Origin: Sphingorhabdus wooponensis
GTDB taxonomy: Bacteria > Pseudomonadota > Alphaproteobacteria > Sphingomonadales > Sphingomonadaceae
Reading direction: 5' to 3'
Length of the DNA stretch: 64,000 nt
Assembly (NCBI RefSeq): GCF_003933235.1
Contig: NZ_RWJI01000001.1
Coordinates: forward strand, 378,001 to 442,000
The stretch's first letter is position 1; each line of letters opens with the position of its first letter. The translations under genes and the position numbers were made by a program. The notes under the pieces were generated by a model. It was not told the DNA's origin. It did no database searches and worked only from the letters and a program-made list of their open reading frames with translations. Below, piece by piece: positions 8,050 through 17,734 of the stretch.

Positions 8050-9117
8050 CTAAACCTCTAACCGTCCATGTTCCAGCTTCGGCAACACATAACGCGCAAA
8101 CATGTCGCATTCGTTGATGTGCGGATAGCCCGACAATATGAACGCCTCGATGCCTACGTCGCGATAGGCGTTAATCTTGGCAAGCACTTGGTCAGGGTCG
8201 CCGACGATAGCAGCGCCGCAACCTGAACGGGCGCGGCCAATGCCGGTCCACAGATTATCTTCCAGATATCCGTCATTTGCCGCAGCTTGCGCCCGCAATT
8301 CGGCCTGATGCGCAACGCCGAATGTTTGGGTGTCGAGCGATTTGTTGCGGATGGCCTCGCCCTGATCGGCATCAAGCTTGGACAGCAAACGGTCGGCATA
8401 AGCGCGGGCCTCTGCTTCGGTGTCGCGGACAATAACATGCGCGCGGAAACCATATTTCAGCGTGCGGCCAAACTTAGCAGCGCGGGCGGTCATGTCTTCG
8501 ACCAAGTCCTTGGCACCCTGCACCGTTTCGGGCCACATGAGATAGACGTCACAACCTTCGGCAGCAGCGTCCTTTGCGGCTGGCGACAGGCCACCAAAAT
8601 AAAGCGGCGGGCATTTACCGCTGACCGTTTTCATACGTGGCGGGTCGATGTCGATCTTGTAATGCTCTCCATCGATCGACAGATGTTCGCCGTTCAGCAA
8701 AGTCTTCAATATGTGCATCGCCTCAACGGTGCGGCGGTAGCGGGGTTCGGAAGCCATCTTATCGCCGGGCAAATCCGACGAGATGATGTTCACATTCAAC
8801 CGTCCGCCCGAAATCTGGTCCAGCGTTGCGATCTGCCGTGCAAGCTGGGGAGGCCAGCTTTCCCCGATACGCACAGCCATCAGTAATTTGATCCGCGAGG
8901 TTAGCGCCGCAATCGCACTGGCGAAAGCGGTGGTGTCAAGGCCAAGGGTATAGCCCGATGGCAGCAAAATATTGTCAAACCCGCCTTTTTCGGCAGCTAA
9001 AACGATATTGCGGCAATGTTCCCAGCTGGAGGCCAGATTGGAGTCGGGGACGCCCAAAAATTCATAGTCATCATCGCAAAGCGCGGAGAACCAGCTCACT
9101 TCGACAGGCTTGTTCAT
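8050..9117 (-). CDS. smoC: SsuD-like flavin-dependent sulfonate monooxygenase, probable sulfoquinovose monooxygenase (SmoC-like)
   Basis: A 355-residue two-component FMNH2-dependent monooxygenase of the luciferase/SsuD family. The alignment to E. coli SsuD that I can recall is close: the segment FRAHVIVR supplies Arg225 and His227, GIGRARSG supplies Arg297, and SGYPH supplies Tyr331, matching SsuD Arg226, His228, Arg297 and Tyr331. SsuD Cys54 is not conserved. These residues bind flavin and the sulfonate and drive C-S cleavage to sulfite and an aldehyde. As last gene of the sulfoquinovosidase operon its likely substrate is sulfoquinovose, giving 6-oxo-glucose. ATG at 9117 overlaps the upstream stop (ATGA), deciding the start. 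The flavin reductase partner is not encoded nearby. A general alkanesulfonate role cannot be excluded. Confidence 0.82.
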   Translation of the reverse strand: MNKPVEVSWFSALCDDDYEFLGVPDSNLASSWEHCRNIVLAAEKGGFDNILLPSGYTLGLDTTAFASAIAALTSRIKLLMAVRIGESWPPQLARQIATLDQISGGRLNVNIISSDLPGDKMASEPRYRRTVEAMHILKTLLNGEHLSIDGEHYKIDIDPPRMKTVSGKCPPLYFGGLSPAAKDAAAEGCDVYLMWPETVQGAKDLVEDMTARAAKFGRTLKYGFRAHVIVRDTEAEARAYADRLLSKLDADQGEAIRNKSLDTQTFGVAHQAELRAQAAANDGYLEDNLWTGIGRARSGCGAAIVGDPDQVLAKINAYRDVGIEAFILSGYPHINECDMFARYVLPKLEHGRLEV

Positions 9118-10016
9118 GGCAGCGGCACTCCTCTTGCGGCGACAAGTACGCTGTACCAATCGGTGCGGGTCCATTGGATTTTGAAGGCATCAGCGGCTTC
9201 GGCAATCCGCGCCGGGTTTTGTGAACCGACAATCGGGATTGGCCGGGCGGGGTGCGCCATGATCCAGCTATAGGCAGCCGCCGTGCGCGAAACGCCGTGT
9301 GCGTCCGCAACCGCCGAAAGGGCCGCAGCGACATTTTGTTCACGCGCATTTTGTGGATCCCCAATGCGTCCGCCGCCCAATGGCGACCATGCCATCACGG
9401 CCAAGTCCATCGCTATCGCTTGATCGAGCTCGCCATTCTCAACGGTGTCAATCCGCAGGGGTGACAGTTCGGGTTGTGTTGAGACAATGGGAACGGAGCT
9501 AAATTGCGCCAGCGTCGCAATTTGCGCTTGTGTAAAGTTGGACACGCCGAACGCGCGGATTTTGCCTGCTTTATGCGCGTTTTCGATGGTGCGGGCAATT
9601 TCCTGCGGGTGCGTCAACACGTCTGGCCGGTGAATTTGCCATAGGTCGATGCGGTCCGTGCGCAAACGGGTCAGGCTGTCATCAATGGCTTTGGTCAGAT
9701 ATTCCGCGCTGCTGTCATAAGGCGTTGGCGGGGTGATGCCGCCCTTTGTCGCCAGCACCATGCGGTCCCGATATTCAGGGGCTTGCGCAAAGACATGGCC
9801 AAGCAGTTCTTCGGCCTTGCCAAAGCCTTGTTCGCCAAAACCGTAAATGTCGGCGGTATCGAAAAGGGTAATGCCAGCCTCAAACGCGGCATCAATGGCG
9901 GCGCGCGCGGCGGACAATTCAAGCCCAGCAAAGCGCCACATGCCCCATGCGAGGGACGAAATTTCTATGCCACTTTTGCCCAATGGACGGGTGCGTGACG
10001 GGGAAGGAAGGGTCAT
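9114..10016 (-). CDS. smoB: Aldo/keto reductase, probable 6-oxo-glucose reductase (SmoB-like)
   Basis: A 300-residue NADPH-dependent aldo/keto reductase of the YdhF-like branch. The catalytic tetrad is visible: Asp53, Tyr58 (FDTADIYGFG), Lys91 (LATKGG) and His129 (DLWQIHRPD). The C-terminal cofactor-binding segment IPIVGSQNPARI is also present. In the sulfo-SMO pathway of Agrobacterium a reductase of this branch turns 6-oxo-glucose into glucose after sulfonate removal; here the gene overlaps by 4 bases both the LacI-type regulator gene before it and the sulfonate monooxygenase gene after it, which supports the same role. Without context it would only be called an aldo/keto reductase. Confidence 0.8.
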   Translation of the reverse strand: MTLPSPSRTRPLGKSGIEISSLAWGMWRFAGLELSAARAAIDAAFEAGITLFDTADIYGFGEQGFGKAEELLGHVFAQAPEYRDRMVLATKGGITPPTPYDSSAEYLTKAIDDSLTRLRTDRIDLWQIHRPDVLTHPQEIARTIENAHKAGKIRAFGVSNFTQAQIATLAQFSSVPIVSTQPELSPLRIDTVENGELDQAIAMDLAVMAWSPLGGGRIGDPQNAREQNVAAALSAVADAHGVSRTAAAYSWIMAHPARPIPIVGSQNPARIAEAADAFKIQWTRTDWYSVLVAARGVPLP

Positions 10017-11044
10017 GATTTTTTGCTCTTTTTTGGTGAGGGAAAATAAGGAGGAGCTACGGATTCGCGGCTGATAAGTTCGTGGGGCAGGCGACGATGC
10101 TCAATTCCGCCTTCGCCAAACAACAGGTCAGCGGCAGTGGAGGCAAGGTCGCGTACGGGCTGGCGCACCGTCGTCAAGGGTGGCCAGACAACGCGGGCTA
10201 GTGTCGTATCGTCAAAGCCCGCAACCGAAAGCTGTTCGGGGATTTGAATGCCGCGCCGATGCGCGACCGCAAGTACGCCTGATGCCATGTCGTCGTTGGA
10301 TGCGAAAATCGCGGTGGGTGGCTGCTTTAGCGATAGGAACTGCTCCGTCGCCGCTACGCCGCTTTCGAAATCAAACCGTCCCTCGGCAATCAAGGCAGTA
10401 TCAACCGATATGCCGACGCGTCCCAAGGCGCGTTCGTAACCGGCTTGTCGTTCGGTACTCGCCTTATGATTTGGGTGGCCCTTGATAAAGCCAATCCGCC
10501 GATGGCCGATGTTGATCAGCTTCGTCGTCATGTCGTCAGCGGCTTGCATATCATCCATGAAGACCGAGCTGGTTAGTGCATGGTTGGTGCCCGGCGAGAT
10601 ACGCACAAAAGGAATGTTGAGCGCCTCAAGCGCATTCAGCACAGGCACGCAATCGGTGACGGGTGAGGAGAGTATTGCCCCATCGACATGCGTTTGTCGG
10701 ACCATGCCGCGCACTTGTTCACCGACGTCTGGGTCGGCCACATCCACCGGCTGCGCGATCAAGCGCATGCCTTCTTGGTGGCATCGGTCCCAGCATCCCT
10801 GCATGATTTGGTGCATATAATATGGGCTGTGATTGTCGTAGATAAGGGCAATCTGCCCCGACTTGGTGCCCGCAAGAATGCGCGCGGCAATGCTTGGGCT
10901 AAAGCCAAGCTCCGACATGGCGGCGTCCACTTTTGCCTTAGTCGCTGCGCTCACATACGGATGGTCGTTCAGCACGCGGCTGACGGTTTTGACCGCCACG
11001 CCAGCCAGCTTTGCGACATCGCGTATGTTCGCGCGTGGGTTCAT
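10013..11044 (-). CDS. LacI family regulator of the sulfoquinovose operon
   Basis: A 343-residue LacI/GalR-type repressor. The N-terminal helix-turn-helix is at about residues 6-27 (IRDVAKLAGVAVKTVSRVLN), then a hinge helix (AARILAG, about 53-59) and a periplasmic-binding-protein-like sensor domain. It is the second gene of the operon and overlaps both neighbours by 4 bases, so it is probably autoregulated. A perfect AACCGGTT palindrome with the central CG typical of this family lies between the operon start and the divergent TonB receptor gene. The inducer is likely sulfoquinovose or a glycoside of it, by context only. Confidence 0.92.
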   Translation of the reverse strand: MNPRANIRDVAKLAGVAVKTVSRVLNDHPYVSAATKAKVDAAMSELGFSPSIAARILAGTKSGQIALIYDNHSPYYMHQIMQGCWDRCHQEGMRLIAQPVDVADPDVGEQVRGMVRQTHVDGAILSSPVTDCVPVLNALEALNIPFVRISPGTNHALTSSVFMDDMQAADDMTTKLINIGHRRIGFIKGHPNHKASTERQAGYERALGRVGISVDTALIAEGRFDFESGVAATEQFLSLKQPPTAIFASNDDMASGVLAVAHRRGIQIPEQLSVAGFDDTTLARVVWPPLTTVRQPVRDLASTAADLLFGEGGIEHRRLPHELISRESVAPPYFPSPKKSKKS

Positions 11045-13053
11045 GCAGAAAAGGCCCTGCGGATGGCTGCGAATAGGTCTGCATATGCGCTGTCGGCGCG
11101 GGTGAAGACAGGTGGCTGACCATGGGGTGCAGCAATATCATGCGTGCCTTTGCCATAGGCCTTGCCGGACCAGAGATGGATCCAATCGCCATCGGGTATT
11201 ACCACCGGCCGGCTGTCTTGGCCTTCCGTAATCACCGGTGCGACAATCATGTCAGCGCCATAAAGATATTGGTCCTGAATATCGAAATATGCAGGGTCAT
11301 CATAATGCAGGAATATGGGCCGTTGCAGCGGAAGGCCAGTCGCCACCGCCTCGTTGCAAAGCGCGCGAACATAAGGCGCAAGCTGTGCATGCACTTGGCT
11401 CATCCGCGCAAAGTGGCTCAGAATTTCGGGGCTGCTGTCCAGTTGCAAATTGTCCGCGGGGCGGTTGCCTTCATGGCTGCGCATCACAGGGGCAAAGGCG
11501 GCAAGGTCAATCCAGCGGTGCATGAGCTCCGCCGTCCGCACCACGCCGTGCAGGCTCGTATATCCGCCCAAGTCGCTATGATGATAGGCGTTACCCAACA
11601 GGCCAGATGACAAAGCGGCCGTTATCACCGTGTTGATGCCATCATGGCGCGTGAAATCGACACATTGGTCGCCCGCCCATAATAAGGGGCAATGTCCCTG
11701 AACGCCCGAAAAACCGGCGCGCATGAAGAAGGTTGCGTCATGGGTCTTGCCGCGTGAGGCTATCGCATCAGCGTTTACCTTCGCCCATAAAACGGGCCAG
11801 CGATTATGCGCCTCCATTGGATCGGATCCGTCGAATAAGCGCACATCGGTCGGCAGATATTCGCCAAAGTCGGCCATCCACCCTGAAAGACCGAAATCGA
11901 GCATTTCCTGACCAATGATGCGGTCGGCAAACCAATTGGCCGCGTCAGGATTGGTGAAGTCCACTACGCCTGCGTCAAATTCACCGAAGTCGACGGCATA
12001 GGCGTCGTTACTGTCTTGCCGCAGCGCGAGATAATTATGGGCCAGCGCTTCTTGATAGAGTGCGCCATCCACCGCCAGATAGGGGTTCACATAACCCAAA
12101 AAGCGAATGCCCCTTTTGGCGAGCGAAGCTATCTGGTCGGGCAGTTCGGGATAGCGTGCGGCGTTCCATTTCCAGTCCCAAAACAAGCGTTTGCCAAAAC
12201 TGGTTTGGCGGATGCCCACCCAATCTTCGCACCACAGACCCGTAATGGCCGCGCCAGAGGCGGCTATGGTCTCGAAGCGATCAAATGTATCCACGCCGTC
12301 TTTCAGGCCGACAATCGCGCCGGAAATTGCCCAGTCGGGCAAAGGCGGTTGGCGCCCAAAACGATCGGATAATTTCGTAACCAGAGCAGGCAAAGAGGCT
12401 GCATCGAAAAGCTCTAAATCGACATTTTCCGACCAGCATTCGATACCCACTCTGCCTGCTTCTGTCAGATCCAGCACGGCATAAGCCGCCGTCTCGAGGT
12501 GCACTGCATAACGCGCACTGCTCACCCATGTTGGCTGCGGATAATTGGTCGTCCAATAATCACCGCCCGCCAAGCCATCTGCATCCATGGTCTGTGTAAG
12601 CGCGGTCGATTTATCGCGGCCAACCCCAGGCTCCGATGTCCAGAATGGAAATCGCCGTCCGTTCAGCCGCAAATAAGACATTTGCTCTCCGCCGCCCCAA
12701 AAGGCTTCGGTCGTTGCGCACTGCATATCTAACCAAAGCCGGTTGAAGGCTGGATCGCTACAGCGAAATTTGAGGATGGATTGCGGCGCTTTTTCCTCAA
12801 ACTGCAGCGTTGCGACGACGTCGGGTTGGTTTGCGTTCCAAAGCCGGATGCAGCCATCATCTTGGGCAAAGCAGTCTAGCTTTAATCTCGTTTCAACGAT
12901 GTCGTCGATACGAAAATTGCCGCGCACCATTTCCAAATCAGGCGAACCAATGCCAATACGGATAGCAGGGGTGCCAGCGCGATGCGACAGAATGCATTTG
13001 TCATCGTGCAGCAGGTCGAAGCCGTCTGATTGCATGATGACTCTAAATGGCAA
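11041..13053 (-). CDS. smoI: GH31 sulfoquinovosidase (YihQ/SmoI-like)
   Basis: A 670-residue glycoside hydrolase family 31 protein. The nucleophile is Asp395 (GWMADFGEYLP) and the acid/base is Asp462 (WAGDQCVDF), 67 residues apart as in E. coli YihQ (405/472). The sulfonate-recognition set known from sulfoquinovosidases is present: Lys251, Glu276, Arg289, Trp292 and Tyr498, the K-E-R-W-Y version reported for the Agrobacterium enzyme, with 13, 3 and 36-residue spacings conserved. This argues against an ordinary alpha-glucosidase. It would cleave sulfoquinovosyl glycerol and related glycosides. No signal peptide is visible, so it is probably cytoplasmic. The TTG at 13053 has a good GAGAGGGA ribosome-binding site 6 bases upstream; an ATG at 13035 is the alternative. 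First gene of a four-gene overlapping operon. Confidence 0.88.
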   Translation of the reverse strand: MPFRVIMQSDGFDLLHDDKCILSHRAGTPAIRIGIGSPDLEMVRGNFRIDDIVETRLKLDCFAQDDGCIRLWNANQPDVVATLQFEEKAPQSILKFRCSDPAFNRLWLDMQCATTEAFWGGGEQMSYLRLNGRRFPFWTSEPGVGRDKSTALTQTMDADGLAGGDYWTTNYPQPTWVSSARYAVHLETAAYAVLDLTEAGRVGIECWSENVDLELFDAASLPALVTKLSDRFGRQPPLPDWAISGAIVGLKDGVDTFDRFETIAASGAAITGLWCEDWVGIRQTSFGKRLFWDWKWNAARYPELPDQIASLAKRGIRFLGYVNPYLAVDGALYQEALAHNYLALRQDSNDAYAVDFGEFDAGVVDFTNPDAANWFADRIIGQEMLDFGLSGWMADFGEYLPTDVRLFDGSDPMEAHNRWPVLWAKVNADAIASRGKTHDATFFMRAGFSGVQGHCPLLWAGDQCVDFTRHDGINTVITAALSSGLLGNAYHHSDLGGYTSLHGVVRTAELMHRWIDLAAFAPVMRSHEGNRPADNLQLDSSPEILSHFARMSQVHAQLAPYVRALCNEAVATGLPLQRPIFLHYDDPAYFDIQDQYLYGADMIVAPVITEGQDSRPVVIPDGDWIHLWSGKAYGKGTHDIAAPHGQPPVFTRADSAYADLFAAIRRAFSA

Positions 13054-13059
13054 CTTCTG

Positions 13060-13068
13060 TCCCTCTCG
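13060..13068 (-). promoter_or_regulatory. Ribosome-binding site supporting TTG start of sulfoquinovosidase gene
   Basis: On the minus strand GAGAGGGAC lies 6 bases before the TTG at 13053. The ATG at 13035 has only a weak TAGAG upstream. This favours the TTG start. Confidence 0.55.
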
Positions 13069-13076
13069 TCGTATCG

Positions 13077-13084
13077 AACCGGTT
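13077..13084. promoter_or_regulatory. Candidate LacI-family operator
   Basis: A perfect 8-base palindrome AACCGGTT with a central CG, the typical core of LacI/GalR operators, 24-31 bases upstream of the sulfoquinovosidase start and between its ribosome-binding site and any promoter. Position and core fit repression by the operon's own LacI-type protein. Confidence 0.5.
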
Positions 13085-13198
13085 ACTATGGCAGTAATGC
13101 AACAGTCATAGCTTAAATAATGTCGCTATATGACACCGCTAGACATAACAAGACGGTTTGGTTACATCAACCCCGTTATCAACGAAGTTATACCGACC

Positions 13199-13210
13199 TG
13201 AAACGTTCCG
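13199..13210. promoter_or_regulatory. Second candidate operator, near TonB receptor gene
   Basis: TGAAACGTTCCG is an imperfect palindrome (4 of 6 half-site positions pair) around a central AACGTT, about 60 bases upstream of the TonB receptor start. It could be a second site for the LacI-type repressor, but the match to AACCGGTT is partial. Confidence 0.3.
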
Positions 13211-13269
13211 CTAGGCAATAATGTCTGCGGAATTTTTACAAACAGGCGGTATTTTTAGGGAGGCACAAG

Positions 13270-15600
13270 ATGCGTAATTCCACATGTAATAAGTCGAAAT
13301 TTGTCCGCGCGGCACTGCTGGGTAGCAGCGCCTTGGCGCTCGGAATTTCTGCTCCTGCATTTGCGCAGGTTGAAGAAATCGTCGTCACTGCGCAGAAGGT
13401 AGAAGAAAATTTGCAGGATGTGCCAATCGCGATCACTGCGGTTTCTGGTGATACGCTGACGGCGTCTGGCACTAATAGCCTCGAAAATTTGAGCCAGTTG
13501 GTTCCATCGGTAACGTTCCGCAAGGGCACAACAAATGCTAACTCGGCAGTTGTGTTGCGCGGCGTCGGAACGATTTCGTTCTCAATCGCAGCAGAACCAA
13601 GTGTTTCGACCGTTGTCGACGGTGTCGTGCTCAGCCGCTCAGGTCAGGCATTTGCCGATCTGGTGGAAATCGAGCGCCTCGAAGTATTGCGCGGGCCACA
13701 AGGCACCTTGTTTGGCAAGAACGCGTCGGCTGGTCTTATCAACGTCGTTTCCAAAGGTGGTACCGACACGCTTGAGGGTGAAGTTACCGTAGAGGGTTTT
13801 GAAGGTGGCGAATATCGCGGCCGTGCAACCGTTTCCGGCCCAGTCGCAGAGAGTCTGACATTCCGCGCAAACGCATTTTACGGCACATATGAAGGCAATA
13901 TCACCAACATTTTGGGCGGTAACAAAAATAAGATCAATGGTTATGAGCATGTCGGCTTCCGCGGATTGCTTGATTTTGACAATGGTCCCGCACGGATCAA
14001 GCTCATCGCTGATTATTATGAAGCGGATGATGATTGCTGCGGCGAAGTCACTGGCGTGTCACGCGGTGCTGCGCTGGACGCAGAGTTGAACCTGCCATTG
14101 GGCGTGGCCCAAGGTGAAAATCAGCGTTTTGTGAACCATAATCTGGTGACGGAGTCGTTGGATCGTCAAGTCGGCATCACAATAAACGCAGATTTCGATG
14201 TATTTTCCGATCATACGTTGAGCGCGATTTACGGTTATCGTGATTGGAATAATACAGAAATCCGCGAAGGCGATTTCTTGCCTCGTGCTGTTGTGGGCAC
14301 ACCACAATTGCATGACCGTGGTCTTGTCGAAACCAACCAAAGCTCGCTTGAAGTACGTTTGGCCTCAGACCAAAGCAAAGCGTTCAAATATCAGGTCGGT
14401 GCGTTTTACTGGAACTCGGAAAATACGCAGGACTTCACACGTGAGGTTATCACATGTGCAACATCCACTTCGGCTGTTGATGCGCGAACGGGTGCTCGTC
14501 CCTGTAACCTTACAGATACGGTCAATACATTGTTCCCGACTGCCACATCAAGAAGCTTAGTTGATATTGAAAATTATGCTGTTTTCGGTCAGGCAACTTA
14601 TGATTTCACCGACCGCGTCGGTTTAACCGTTGGTATGCGCTGGACGCATGACTCCATCGATTATACCCACAACCGTGCACCAGGCGTAAACCGCACCAAT
14701 GGCGCAGCGGCAACGGGTGCTGGTATCTCGGGTTCGCCTGCTGGTGGCACAGTTGCAACGGGCGGTAACGGTACAGCGCTGTCAACCGGATCGTCCAGTA
14801 ACAGCAATTTCTCCGGCAAGGCAGTGCTGACTGTGAAGCCAACTGACGATGTCATGGTCTATGGCAGCTATACGCGCGGCTATAAGGGCCCAGCGTTCAA
14901 CGTCTTCTTCAACCACACTGCTCCCACCAATGCGGTGCCGATTGATGAAGAAACATCGGATTCGTTCGAAGCCGGTATTAAGAGCCAGTTTGCCGACAAC
15001 CGCATCCAATTGAATGCGTCGGTATTCCAAGTGACCTATGACGGGTTCCAGGCGAACAACTTCGTGCTGTTGAATGGTGCAGTAGTTACCAACCTGACCA
15101 ATGCTGGCCAAGTGCGCAGCACAGGTTTTGAACTGGATGCAGTGGCAAATCCTGCTGAGGGCCTCGATCTGTTCGGAAGCGTTGCTTATGCGGATGCCAA
15201 GGTTCGCAAGTTCAACGCGAACCCGCTGACCAACGCACCAGATGCACGTAACGGCACAAAACTGCCTTTGGCGCCAGCGTGGAGCTGGAACATTGGCGCG
15301 GCTTATGAAGCCCCGTTCAAGATGTTTGGTCGTGATGACAAGGTCTATCTGCGGACAAGCTTCAACCATGTTGGCAAGCAGTTTTCAGATCTGGGTCAAA
15401 GCGGCCCAATCGATAGCTATGGCTTGTGGAATGCGAGCATTGGTTATTCGGACGCCGAAGATAATTGGCGCCTGACGTTCATGGTGCGTAACATTACGGA
15501 CGAAAGCTATGTGCTGCTGAATACCAGCGCAGGCCAGCGTTTGCATATCCCGCGTGATGCCGATCGCTACATGGGTGCAAGCTTGCGCTTCCGCTTCTAA
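13270..15600 (+). CDS. TonB-dependent outer-membrane receptor, probably for sulfoquinovosyl compounds
   Basis: A 776-residue TonB-dependent receptor. It has a signal peptide cleaved after AFA (about residue 33), a TonB box-like EEIVVTAQK at about 35-43, a plug domain (about 50-165, with LRGVGT and VLRGPQGTLFGKNASAG) and a C-terminal beta-barrel ending in the aromatic LRFRF. A strong AGGGAGG ribosome-binding site precedes the ATG. It is divergent from the sulfoquinovosidase operon and shares its 216-base control region, so co-regulation is likely and the substrate may be sulfoquinovosyl glycerol or sulfolipid fragments. The substrate is inference from context; receptors of this type also carry other oligosaccharides or siderophores. 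Confidence 0.93.
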   Translation: MRNSTCNKSKFVRAALLGSSALALGISAPAFAQVEEIVVTAQKVEENLQDVPIAITAVSGDTLTASGTNSLENLSQLVPSVTFRKGTTNANSAVVLRGVGTISFSIAAEPSVSTVVDGVVLSRSGQAFADLVEIERLEVLRGPQGTLFGKNASAGLINVVSKGGTDTLEGEVTVEGFEGGEYRGRATVSGPVAESLTFRANAFYGTYEGNITNILGGNKNKINGYEHVGFRGLLDFDNGPARIKLIADYYEADDDCCGEVTGVSRGAALDAELNLPLGVAQGENQRFVNHNLVTESLDRQVGITINADFDVFSDHTLSAIYGYRDWNNTEIREGDFLPRAVVGTPQLHDRGLVETNQSSLEVRLASDQSKAFKYQVGAFYWNSENTQDFTREVITCATSTSAVDARTGARPCNLTDTVNTLFPTATSRSLVDIENYAVFGQATYDFTDRVGLTVGMRWTHDSIDYTHNRAPGVNRTNGAAATGAGISGSPAGGTVATGGNGTALSTGSSSNSNFSGKAVLTVKPTDDVMVYGSYTRGYKGPAFNVFFNHTAPTNAVPIDEETSDSFEAGIKSQFADNRIQLNASVFQVTYDGFQANNFVLLNGAVVTNLTNAGQVRSTGFELDAVANPAEGLDLFGSVAYADAKVRKFNANPLTNAPDARNGTKLPLAPAWSWNIGAAYEAPFKMFGRDDKVYLRTSFNHVGKQFSDLGQSGPIDSYGLWNASIGYSDAEDNWRLTFMVRNITDESYVLLNTSAGQRLHIPRDADRYMGASLRFRF

Positions 15601-15797: not shown

Positions 15798-16169
15798 ATG
15801 TCATCAGAGCGTATCAGCGACGCTGAATTAACGATTATGGAAATATTGTGGGAACGCGCGCCGCTGACGGCTACCGACGTGGCCGCACGTTTGCCGGATG
15901 ACCGCGCATGGTCTCTGCCCACGGTCAAAACCTTGCTGTCGCGATTGCTTGGTAAGGCAGCGGTTGAGCATCACGTCGATGGCCGTCGTTTTCTGTATTC
16001 GCCGCTTATTGGCCGTGAGGATTATGTCGCGCATGAATCAAAGCGGCTCGTAGATCGCCTTTTTGGCGGCAAGTTCATGCCATTGTTCGCGCATTTGGCG
16101 GAACAGGAAAATCTCAGCGCCGATGACATATCCGAAATCGAAAGATTATTGCAGGAGATGAAATCATGA
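15798..16169 (+). CDS. blaI: BlaI/MecI/CopY family repressor
   Basis: A 123-residue winged-helix repressor. The N-terminal domain (ISDAELTIMEILWE, then the recognition-helix region PTVKTLLSRLLGKAAV) is typical of BlaI/MecI, followed by a small dimerisation domain. Such repressors hold their own operon off until the partner membrane metalloprotease signals and triggers their cleavage. The stop overlaps the start of the BlaR-like gene (ATGA), and two dyads of the right type precede the gene. No beta-lactamase gene is adjacent, so the regulon lies elsewhere or the system controls something other than beta-lactamase. Confidence 0.93.
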   Translation: MSSERISDAELTIMEILWERAPLTATDVAARLPDDRAWSLPTVKTLLSRLLGKAAVEHHVDGRRFLYSPLIGREDYVAHESKRLVDRLFGGKFMPLFAHLAEQENLSADDISEIERLLQEMKS

Positions 16170-17734
16170 GCATGGATTTCATGGGGGCATGGCTGTTCGA
16201 TACCTTTGTGGTGACCAGTATCTTGATGTTGGCGGTTTTGCTGCTGCGGGGACCTGTGGCGCGGCATTTTGGTCCAGGCGTTGCATATGCACTTTGGTGT
16301 ATTCCAGCTGCCCGTGTTTTGATGCCATCGCTAGAGGGGGCGCCCGCACCTGTTTTGGGGAGTGGGGCGACAATACAGGACAATGTGCGCGACGCTATCC
16401 TCGCAGTGATATACGCACCGGAAACTGCCGTTGCAGCCCAGCAAATGGCGGCCGCGCCATCGGTCAATTATGCTGTGCTTGGCTTGACAGTATGGCTTGG
16501 CGGCGCAGCATTGCTATTCATCATTCAGATGATCCGCTACGCCTCTATGCGCGACGAGCTTTTGTCTGAGGCAACCGAAGTCGCAAATATCAACGGCGTC
16601 AGAGTTGTGGCCTCGGATCAGGTGGCTGGGCCGCTCGCCTTCGGCCTGTTCAAACGCTATATTGCTGTGCCGCAGGATTTTAGCAAAAATTATTCACCGG
16701 CCGAACGCGAACTCGCCATCGCCCATGAAATGGCACATCACAAATCGGGTGACCTGTTCGCCAATCTGGCTGCATTCTTCATACTGTGCCTTTTCTGGTT
16801 CAACCCGGTCGCTTGGTTGAGCTGGAACGCCTTTCGCGTTGACCAAGAAGCCGCGTGCGACGCGCGCGTATTGGCAGGCAAATGTTCCGAAGAGCGCGCT
16901 ATTTATGGACGGGCATTGGCGCGCACGGCGTTTGACGGTGTGCCAACTTTTGCCACTGCACTGAATTCCCCAAAAACTATCATCGAACGATTGAGGAGAC
17001 TGAATATGAAAAACGCCAGCACGAAACGGCGCTTGTTTGGCAAAATCGGTGTCATCGCCGCTGCCGCTGTTGTCCTGCCACTGACCGCAACTGTAGTGCC
17101 CGCCGTGGTCGCGCAGGATGATACTGCTGCCGATAGTAAGTCGGAAACCGTCAAGCGCGATGTTCGGATCATCAAGATAAAGCGCGACGGTAAAGAGATC
17201 GATATCGTCGGCCATGACGGGGATAACAAAGATGTCACTAAGGTCGAACGTGACGGTAAGATCTTCATCTTCCGTACCGACAAAAAGCTGACGGAGGAGG
17301 AAGTCGAAAAAATGGTCGGCAAGGCTGAAGCGTCTCGCAAAGCGGCTGATGCGGCTATGGCCGACGGCGATAAATCGGCGATGGAATCAACCGATGTTGC
17401 GCGCGGTACGCCACAGACTAAGCGGATCATCATAAAATCCGCCGCCGACATACCTGAGATCGATATTCAAGGAATGACCGAAAACTGCACTTCCGCTGCG
17501 CAACCCGTCACCACGGATGTCGAAGGCGTGGATGGCACGCGCAAGGCGCGCGTTCGCCTTGTAATGTGTGGTAAGGGGCAAGCACAGATTGCACGGATTG
17601 AAGCAATAAAGGGCTTGCGCGAGGCACGTAGTGAGATTGCTTCGGAAAAAGACATGCCCAAAGCTGTGCGCAAAGATGTGATCGAAAAGCTGGATCAAGA
17701 GATCCGTAAGCTTGAGGCGCAAGCCGACAAGTAA
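16166..17734 (+). CDS. BlaR1/MecR1-like M56 membrane metallopeptidase with unusual C-terminal domain
   Basis: A 522-residue protein with N-terminal transmembrane helices (about 13-28 and 103-123), a cytosolic M56 zinc protease with HEMAH (His187, Glu188, His191) and a third ligand Glu228 (QEAACD), a helix near 200-220, and a further transmembrane segment about 305-327. After it comes a charged extracytoplasmic region of about 190 residues, rich in Lys/Asp with repeats such as IKRDGKEIDIVGHDG. This is not the penicillin-binding transpeptidase sensor of true BlaR1. It should sense a different envelope signal and release BlaI by proteolysis. It starts within the blaI stop codon and ends at a terminator. 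Confidence 0.88.
   Translation: MSMDFMGAWLFDTFVVTSILMLAVLLLRGPVARHFGPGVAYALWCIPAARVLMPSLEGAPAPVLGSGATIQDNVRDAILAVIYAPETAVAAQQMAAAPSVNYAVLGLTVWLGGAALLFIIQMIRYASMRDELLSEATEVANINGVRVVASDQVAGPLAFGLFKRYIAVPQDFSKNYSPAERELAIAHEMAHHKSGDLFANLAAFFILCLFWFNPVAWLSWNAFRVDQEAACDARVLAGKCSEERAIYGRALARTAFDGVPTFATALNSPKTIIERLRRLNMKNASTKRRLFGKIGVIAAAAVVLPLTATVVPAVVAQDDTAADSKSETVKRDVRIIKIKRDGKEIDIVGHDGDNKDVTKVERDGKIFIFRTDKKLTEEEVEKMVGKAEASRKAADAAMADGDKSAMESTDVARGTPQTKRIIIKSAADIPEIDIQGMTENCTSAAQPVTTDVEGVDGTRKARVRLVMCGKGQAQIARIEAIKGLREARSEIASEKDMPKAVRKDVIEKLDQEIRKLEAQADK

Follow-up and report, generated by a model that had tools for sequence, protein, structure and literature searches.

Results

Organisation of the locus

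The window, meaning the whole stretch of 64,000 nucleotides analysed here from the 2.18 Mb genome of Sphingorhabdus wooponensis, carries four genes on the minus strand, a short intergenic element and a divergently oriented receptor gene:

8050..9117, minus strand: SmoC/SquD-type FMNH2-dependent sulfoquinovose monooxygenase, SsuD-like (scores nearest SmoC; Pfam Bac_luciferase)
9114..10016, minus strand: SmoB/SquF-type aldo/keto reductase, 6-dehydroglucose to glucose (mainly gene context; Pfam Aldo_ket_red)
10013..11044, minus strand: LacI-family regulator, proposed binder of the element at 13129-13145 (Pfam LacI and Peripla_BP_3)
11041..13053, minus strand: GH31 sulfoquinovosidase, SmoI/YihQ type (sulfoquinovosidase scores, NF007746; Pfam Glyco_hydro_31)
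13129..13145, minus strand: 17-bp element TGTCTAGCGGTGTCATA in the divergent intergenic region, proposed LacI operator (conserved upstream of the sulfoquinovosidase gene across genera)
13270..15600, plus strand: TonB-dependent outer-membrane receptor (TBDR), type A (Pfam Plug and barrel, Plug/TonB_dep_Rec)

The open reading frame of the monooxygenase extends over 8050-9174 on the minus strand, with an internal ATG at 9117 (M20 of P0001) as the likelier start. Given this start, the three junctions between the minus-strand genes are 4-base overlaps (ATGA) at 9114-9117, 10013-10016 and 11041-11044, while the GH31 gene has two start candidates, TTG 13053 and ATG 13035. Pfam and NCBIfam concur with all five gene family calls. 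As such, the preliminary description of this DNA, which had listed four overlapping minus-strand genes and these same five families, holds up in both respects, and the conserved synteny that it had proposed to look for was found: in Sphingorhabdus and in several further genera of sphingomonads, the genes follow in the order sulfoquinovosidase-LacI-SmoB-SmoC with the TBDR gene divergent to them, a conservation far exceeding chance. The monooxygenase has its nearest named relatives, up to 96% identical, in Sphingorhabdus genomes. Immediately downstream of the TBDR, at 15798-17734, lies a pair of genes for a BlaI-type repressor and an M56 peptidase.

Enzymes of the cluster

Compared with solved structures, the GH31 protein scores 826-828 bits with the sulfoquinovosidase of A. 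tumefaciens (5ohs/5ohy), 698 with 8r56, 657 with 6pnr and 615 with E. coli YihQ (5aed), versus 145 bits with YicI, the nearest other GH31. It reaches 861 bits against NCBIfam NF007746, for which the cut-off is 553; the YihQ-type model is labelled ‘alpha-glucosidase’ by NCBIfam. Judged by these scores, the protein groups with characterised sulfoquinovosidases and not with other GH31 enzymes, so that a place among the plain alpha-glucosidases, which would have spoken against the preliminary description, is not what was found. The candidate catalytic pair D395 and D462 is present, the residue aligned with D462 being N in 5ohs but D in 5ohy, and R289, W292 and Y498 are retained as well, an Arg/Trp/Tyr set that we take to bind the sulfonate. 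Since no signal peptide is apparent, the enzyme is read as cytoplasmic.

Among solved relatives, the monooxygenase scores 372 and 365 bits with 7olf and 7oh2, chains that we take to be SmoC (their PDB molecule names are generic), versus 223 bits with 7jv3 and 195 with SsuD. It shares 52% identity with 7olf over 347 residues and is nearer to SmoC than to SsuD/MsuD. For the aldo/keto reductase, the best solved relatives are 7bbz and 7bby (162 and 161 bits), presumably SmoB, although here too the molecule names are generic. Because its identity to 7bbz is 35% and YdhF follows close behind at 150 bits, the SmoB role of this protein rests mainly on context. The oxidative set of SmoI, SmoB and SmoC types suggested earlier is thus upheld, with GH31 and SmoC carried by score and the reductase, at 162 versus 150 bits, mainly by context. 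Co-localisation of SmoB and SmoC, by which the pathway has been recognised before (PMC13372026), is seen in the window.

A TonB-dependent receptor accompanies the pathway

A related TBDR lies within 7.5 kb of SmoC in 48 of the 50 named loci with full flanks. Across the genus, SmoC was found in 37 of 45 genomes and the sulfoquinovosidase in one more (G017), which gives 38 pathway-positive and 7 pathway-negative genomes; the TBDR (E<=1e-100) occurs in 34 of the former and in none of the latter (Fisher p 7e-6, uncorrected for kinship and as such overstated, since related genomes are not independent). There is one such receptor per genome, among many TBDR candidates. The receptor is therefore a constant partner of the sulfoquinovose (SQ) cluster, and its pairing with these genes, first noted in the window, extends well beyond it. 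It is not indispensable, since an intact copy is missing from three pathway-positive genomes (G017, G067 and G034). At locus L035 of G034, a plug-less TBDR remnant (10839-12212) adjoins an intact SQ operon. That G017 might lack the pathway was considered and rejected, as its sulfoquinovosidase gene and element adjoin a contig end.

The receptor has the Pfam Plug and beta-barrel domains, and its predicted model shows the TBDR fold (pTM 0.72). Both structure and sequence searches of the PDB return metallophore/siderophore receptors such as FyuA as the nearest solved proteins. The cargo is thus not given by sequence, and the fold match carries little weight because solved TBDRs are mostly metallophore receptors; we would expect the receptor to take up sulfoquinovosyl glycerol or a similar glycoside of SQ. 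The earlier statement that a TBDR replaces the usual ABC uptake genes was inexact: the two work at different membranes, so the receptor is no substitute for an ABC importer, and the likely replacement is an MFS transporter.

A shared 17-bp element

The sequence TGTCWAGCGSTGTCATA is present in the divergent intergenic region of nearly all clusters with the gene order of the window, across genera. It was recognised by eye from intergenic regions set side by side, and is roughly palindromic (TGWCA-N5-TGWCA), with an odd and imperfect symmetry; a scan of the intergenic region for 14-bp even palindromes centred on CG or GC gave none that were shared. In the window genome, the copy at 13129-13145 is the sole match without mismatches, and two single-mismatch copies lie at C1:106527 and C1:473359. 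With up to one mismatch, all 71 matches in the 45 genomes of the genus are at SQ-linked genes: 29 at the TBDR/sulfoquinovosidase pair, 28 lie 69-141 bp ahead of an MFS gene, 11 lie 19-20 bp ahead of a flavin-reductase fusion, and the remaining three are at the sulfoquinovosidase gene of genomes without an intact TBDR. A reversed-pattern control over the same 45 genomes gave 0 matches, about 2 being expected by base composition, and the seven pathway-negative genomes hold no element with up to one mismatch. A sigma-70-like promoter was sought at the element and not found. One two-mismatch occurrence near sulfite reductase in the window genome (C1:478851) was left uncounted, since a rough estimate puts chance matches of this quality at about one per genome. 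We propose that the element may serve as operator of the adjacent LacI regulator.

The copy at C1:106527, 284 kb from the cluster, lies upstream of an MFS gene that adjoins a YeiH-family gene. Because this copy overlaps the start codon predicted for YeiH, part of the conservation at the MFS site could be coding. In other genera, the MFS and YeiH genes belong to the SQ cluster, in several cases with the element in their divergent intergenic region; most GH31-type Sphingorhabdus genomes have the two genes apart from the cluster, with the element retained. We infer the direction of transport of both proteins from their sequences. The copy at C1:473359, 82 kb from the cluster, precedes by 19-20 bp a gene for an alpha/beta hydrolase/flavin reductase fusion (C1:473395-474627; L168:8396-9631), which lies beside cysH and sulfite reductase genes; in some relatives the element at this fusion is weaker or lost. 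No flavin reductase (SmoA) was found within the window cluster, which is not disqualifying because N. aromaticivorans also has no linked flavin reductase (PMC9594981), and in some relatives a separate flavin reductase gene follows SmoC. The loci marked by the element are candidate suppliers of the parts missing from the cluster. A glucokinase gene is also present in the genome.

Exchange of receptors, transporters and sulfoquinovosidases

Two types of TBDR occupy the same site, type A with 61-94% identity to the window receptor (P0005) within the genus and type B with about 43%. The cultured relative Sphingorhabdus contaminans (L068) likewise has this cluster together with a type-A receptor. 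The MFS transporter, too, comes in types 1 and 2, and all four combinations of receptor and MFS type occur. The well-supported branches of a tree of SmoC DNA require six or more switches of TBDR type and five or more of MFS type, indicating that both have been swapped repeatedly. Compared with three type-B relatives (L033, L034 and L061), DNA homology of the core breaks off exactly at the far end of the element (13147) and returns near 16-17 kb (about 16900), within the BlaI/M56 genes or past them; this looks like exchange of the receptor together with its promoter side as one block.

The sulfoquinovosidase slot varies too. In several relatives a GH188-type (SqgA) gene stands in place of GH31; L046, L066, L076, L079, L081 and L083 hold a Gfo/Idh/MocA-type gene in this slot, the L046 copy being nearest to GH188 SqgA. 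GH188-type clusters keep a LacI relative of 62-67% identity, mostly without a close match to the element. Two pathway-negative genomes (G035 and G066) lack SmoC and encode proteins related to the SqgA-like one at 48-51%.

Discussion

Taken together, the gene families, synteny, co-occurrence and the specificity of the element observed here indicate that the locus is probably a sulfolytic SQ monooxygenase (sulfo-SMO/sulfo-ASMO) cluster that brings import genes of its own and belongs to a scattered regulon. The TBDR would pass sulfoquinovosyl glycerol, or a similar glycoside of SQ, through the outer membrane, and the MFS transporter encoded 284 kb away would take it on through the inner one. The cytoplasmic GH31 enzyme would then free SQ from the glycoside, after which the SmoC-type monooxygenase would cleave the C-S bond with reduced flavin, probably from the hydrolase/flavin-reductase fusion. 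The aldo/keto reductase would convert 6-dehydroglucose to glucose, which glucokinase could phosphorylate, and sulfite might leave via the YeiH-type exporter or enter sulfite reductase. LacI is predicted to repress the whole set through one common 17-bp operator. The more far-reaching proposal, to which we give an even chance, is that a SQ-specific TBDR clade of at least two interchangeable types gives sphingomonads a dedicated, energised outer-membrane route for the headgroups of sulfolipids, joined with the MFS transporter, a YeiH sulfite/sulfate exporter and the hydrolase/flavin-reductase fusion in one LacI regulon that is dispersed in Sphingorhabdus.

How far could the same observations be read otherwise? 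That an ordinary alpha-glucoside is the substrate of the GH31 enzyme and the proteins encoded beside it, with the SsuD-like enzyme scavenging alkanesulfonates, is highly improbable: the name ‘alpha-glucosidase’ of the NCBIfam YihQ-type model would fit it, but the GH31 scores (826/615 versus 145 bits), a monooxygenase far nearer to SmoC than to SsuD and the joint occurrence of the gene set all argue against it. It is unlikely, if less so, that the operon is sulfo-SMO and the TBDR an unrelated neighbour such as a metallophore receptor, SQ and SQ-glycerol being small enough for porins. The likeness to siderophore receptors such as FyuA in sequence and fold, and the three pathway-positive genomes without an intact receptor, point that way; however, the bias of solved TBDRs towards metallophore receptors devalues the fold match, and a co-occurrence of 34/38 versus 0/7 genomes and 48/50 clusters across genera, the divergent element common to nearly all clusters arranged like this one, and the single such TBDR per genome speak against a chance neighbour.

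The 17-bp element could be a promoter or the site of another regulator, which we regard as unlikely. The related LacI of GH188-type clusters, mostly without the element, points that way, but the element's position (in the gap of a divergent gene pair, and 19-20 bp ahead of the flavin-reductase gene), its rough palindrome at which no sigma-70-like promoter was found, and the 0 sites with up to one mismatch in the seven pathway-negative genomes favour an operator of the adjacent LacI.

The sulfo-SMO pathway, which is the same as sulfo-ASMO and whose catabolic enzymes were already known, is widespread in Sphingomonadaceae. Work on it has dealt with A. tumefaciens and, using recombinant enzymes, with the sphingomonad N. 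aromaticivorans (PMC9594981), and Novosphingobium, for which it has been predicted, is among the main freshwater and mangrove SQ assimilators (PMC13372026). The earlier suggestion that such a cluster is under-described in a sphingomonad was thus mostly wrong. For outer-membrane SQ passage and pathway regulation in sphingomonads, a search of the open-access literature by title and abstract, which is weak evidence of absence, found no paper describing a receptor or regulon. As far as that literature shows, the constant TBDR partner, the unlinked genes sharing the 17-bp element and the repeated swaps of receptor and MFS types appear to be new. The conserved receptor and helper genes under one control site offer a testable picture of how a freshwater Sphingorhabdus could take up this plant sulfosugar, which the pathway splits into glucose and sulfite; the common element names specific candidates for the missing importer, exporter and flavin reductase, and makes it easy to look for these in further sphingomonad genomes. 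Furthermore, the receptor-type swaps at a fixed site make it practicable to follow how transport genes are exchanged while the catabolic core stays stable.

Among known systems, the sulfo-ASMO pathway of N. aromaticivorans (SquD, SquF and a sulfoquinovosidase) shares the sphingomonad host, oxygenolytic C-S cleavage, reduction to glucose and a cluster without flavin reductase, whereas the text describing it (PMC9594981) does not mention the TBDR, MFS/YeiH module or operator of the window locus; the cluster of N. aromaticivorans DSM 12444 lies outside the set of loci compared here. With the sulfo-SMO pathway of A. tumefaciens (SmoI, SmoB, SmoC and SmoA), the GH31, monooxygenase and reductase steps are common (sulfoquinovosidase 826 bits, SmoC 52%, SmoB 35%), yet that organism has an SQ-glycerol ABC importer and a linked flavin reductase where Sphingorhabdus has a TBDR, a distant MFS transporter and a distant flavin-reductase fusion. 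GH188 sulfo-SMO clusters hold SqgA, whose listed members include that of Sphingomonas sp. Leaf17 and for which structures are named (PMC10755693), in the same slot beside TBDR, LacI, SmoB and SmoC in several sphingomonads; their sulfoquinovosidase is an NAD-dependent enzyme of the Gfo/Idh/MocA fold, whereas that of the window cluster belongs to GH31.
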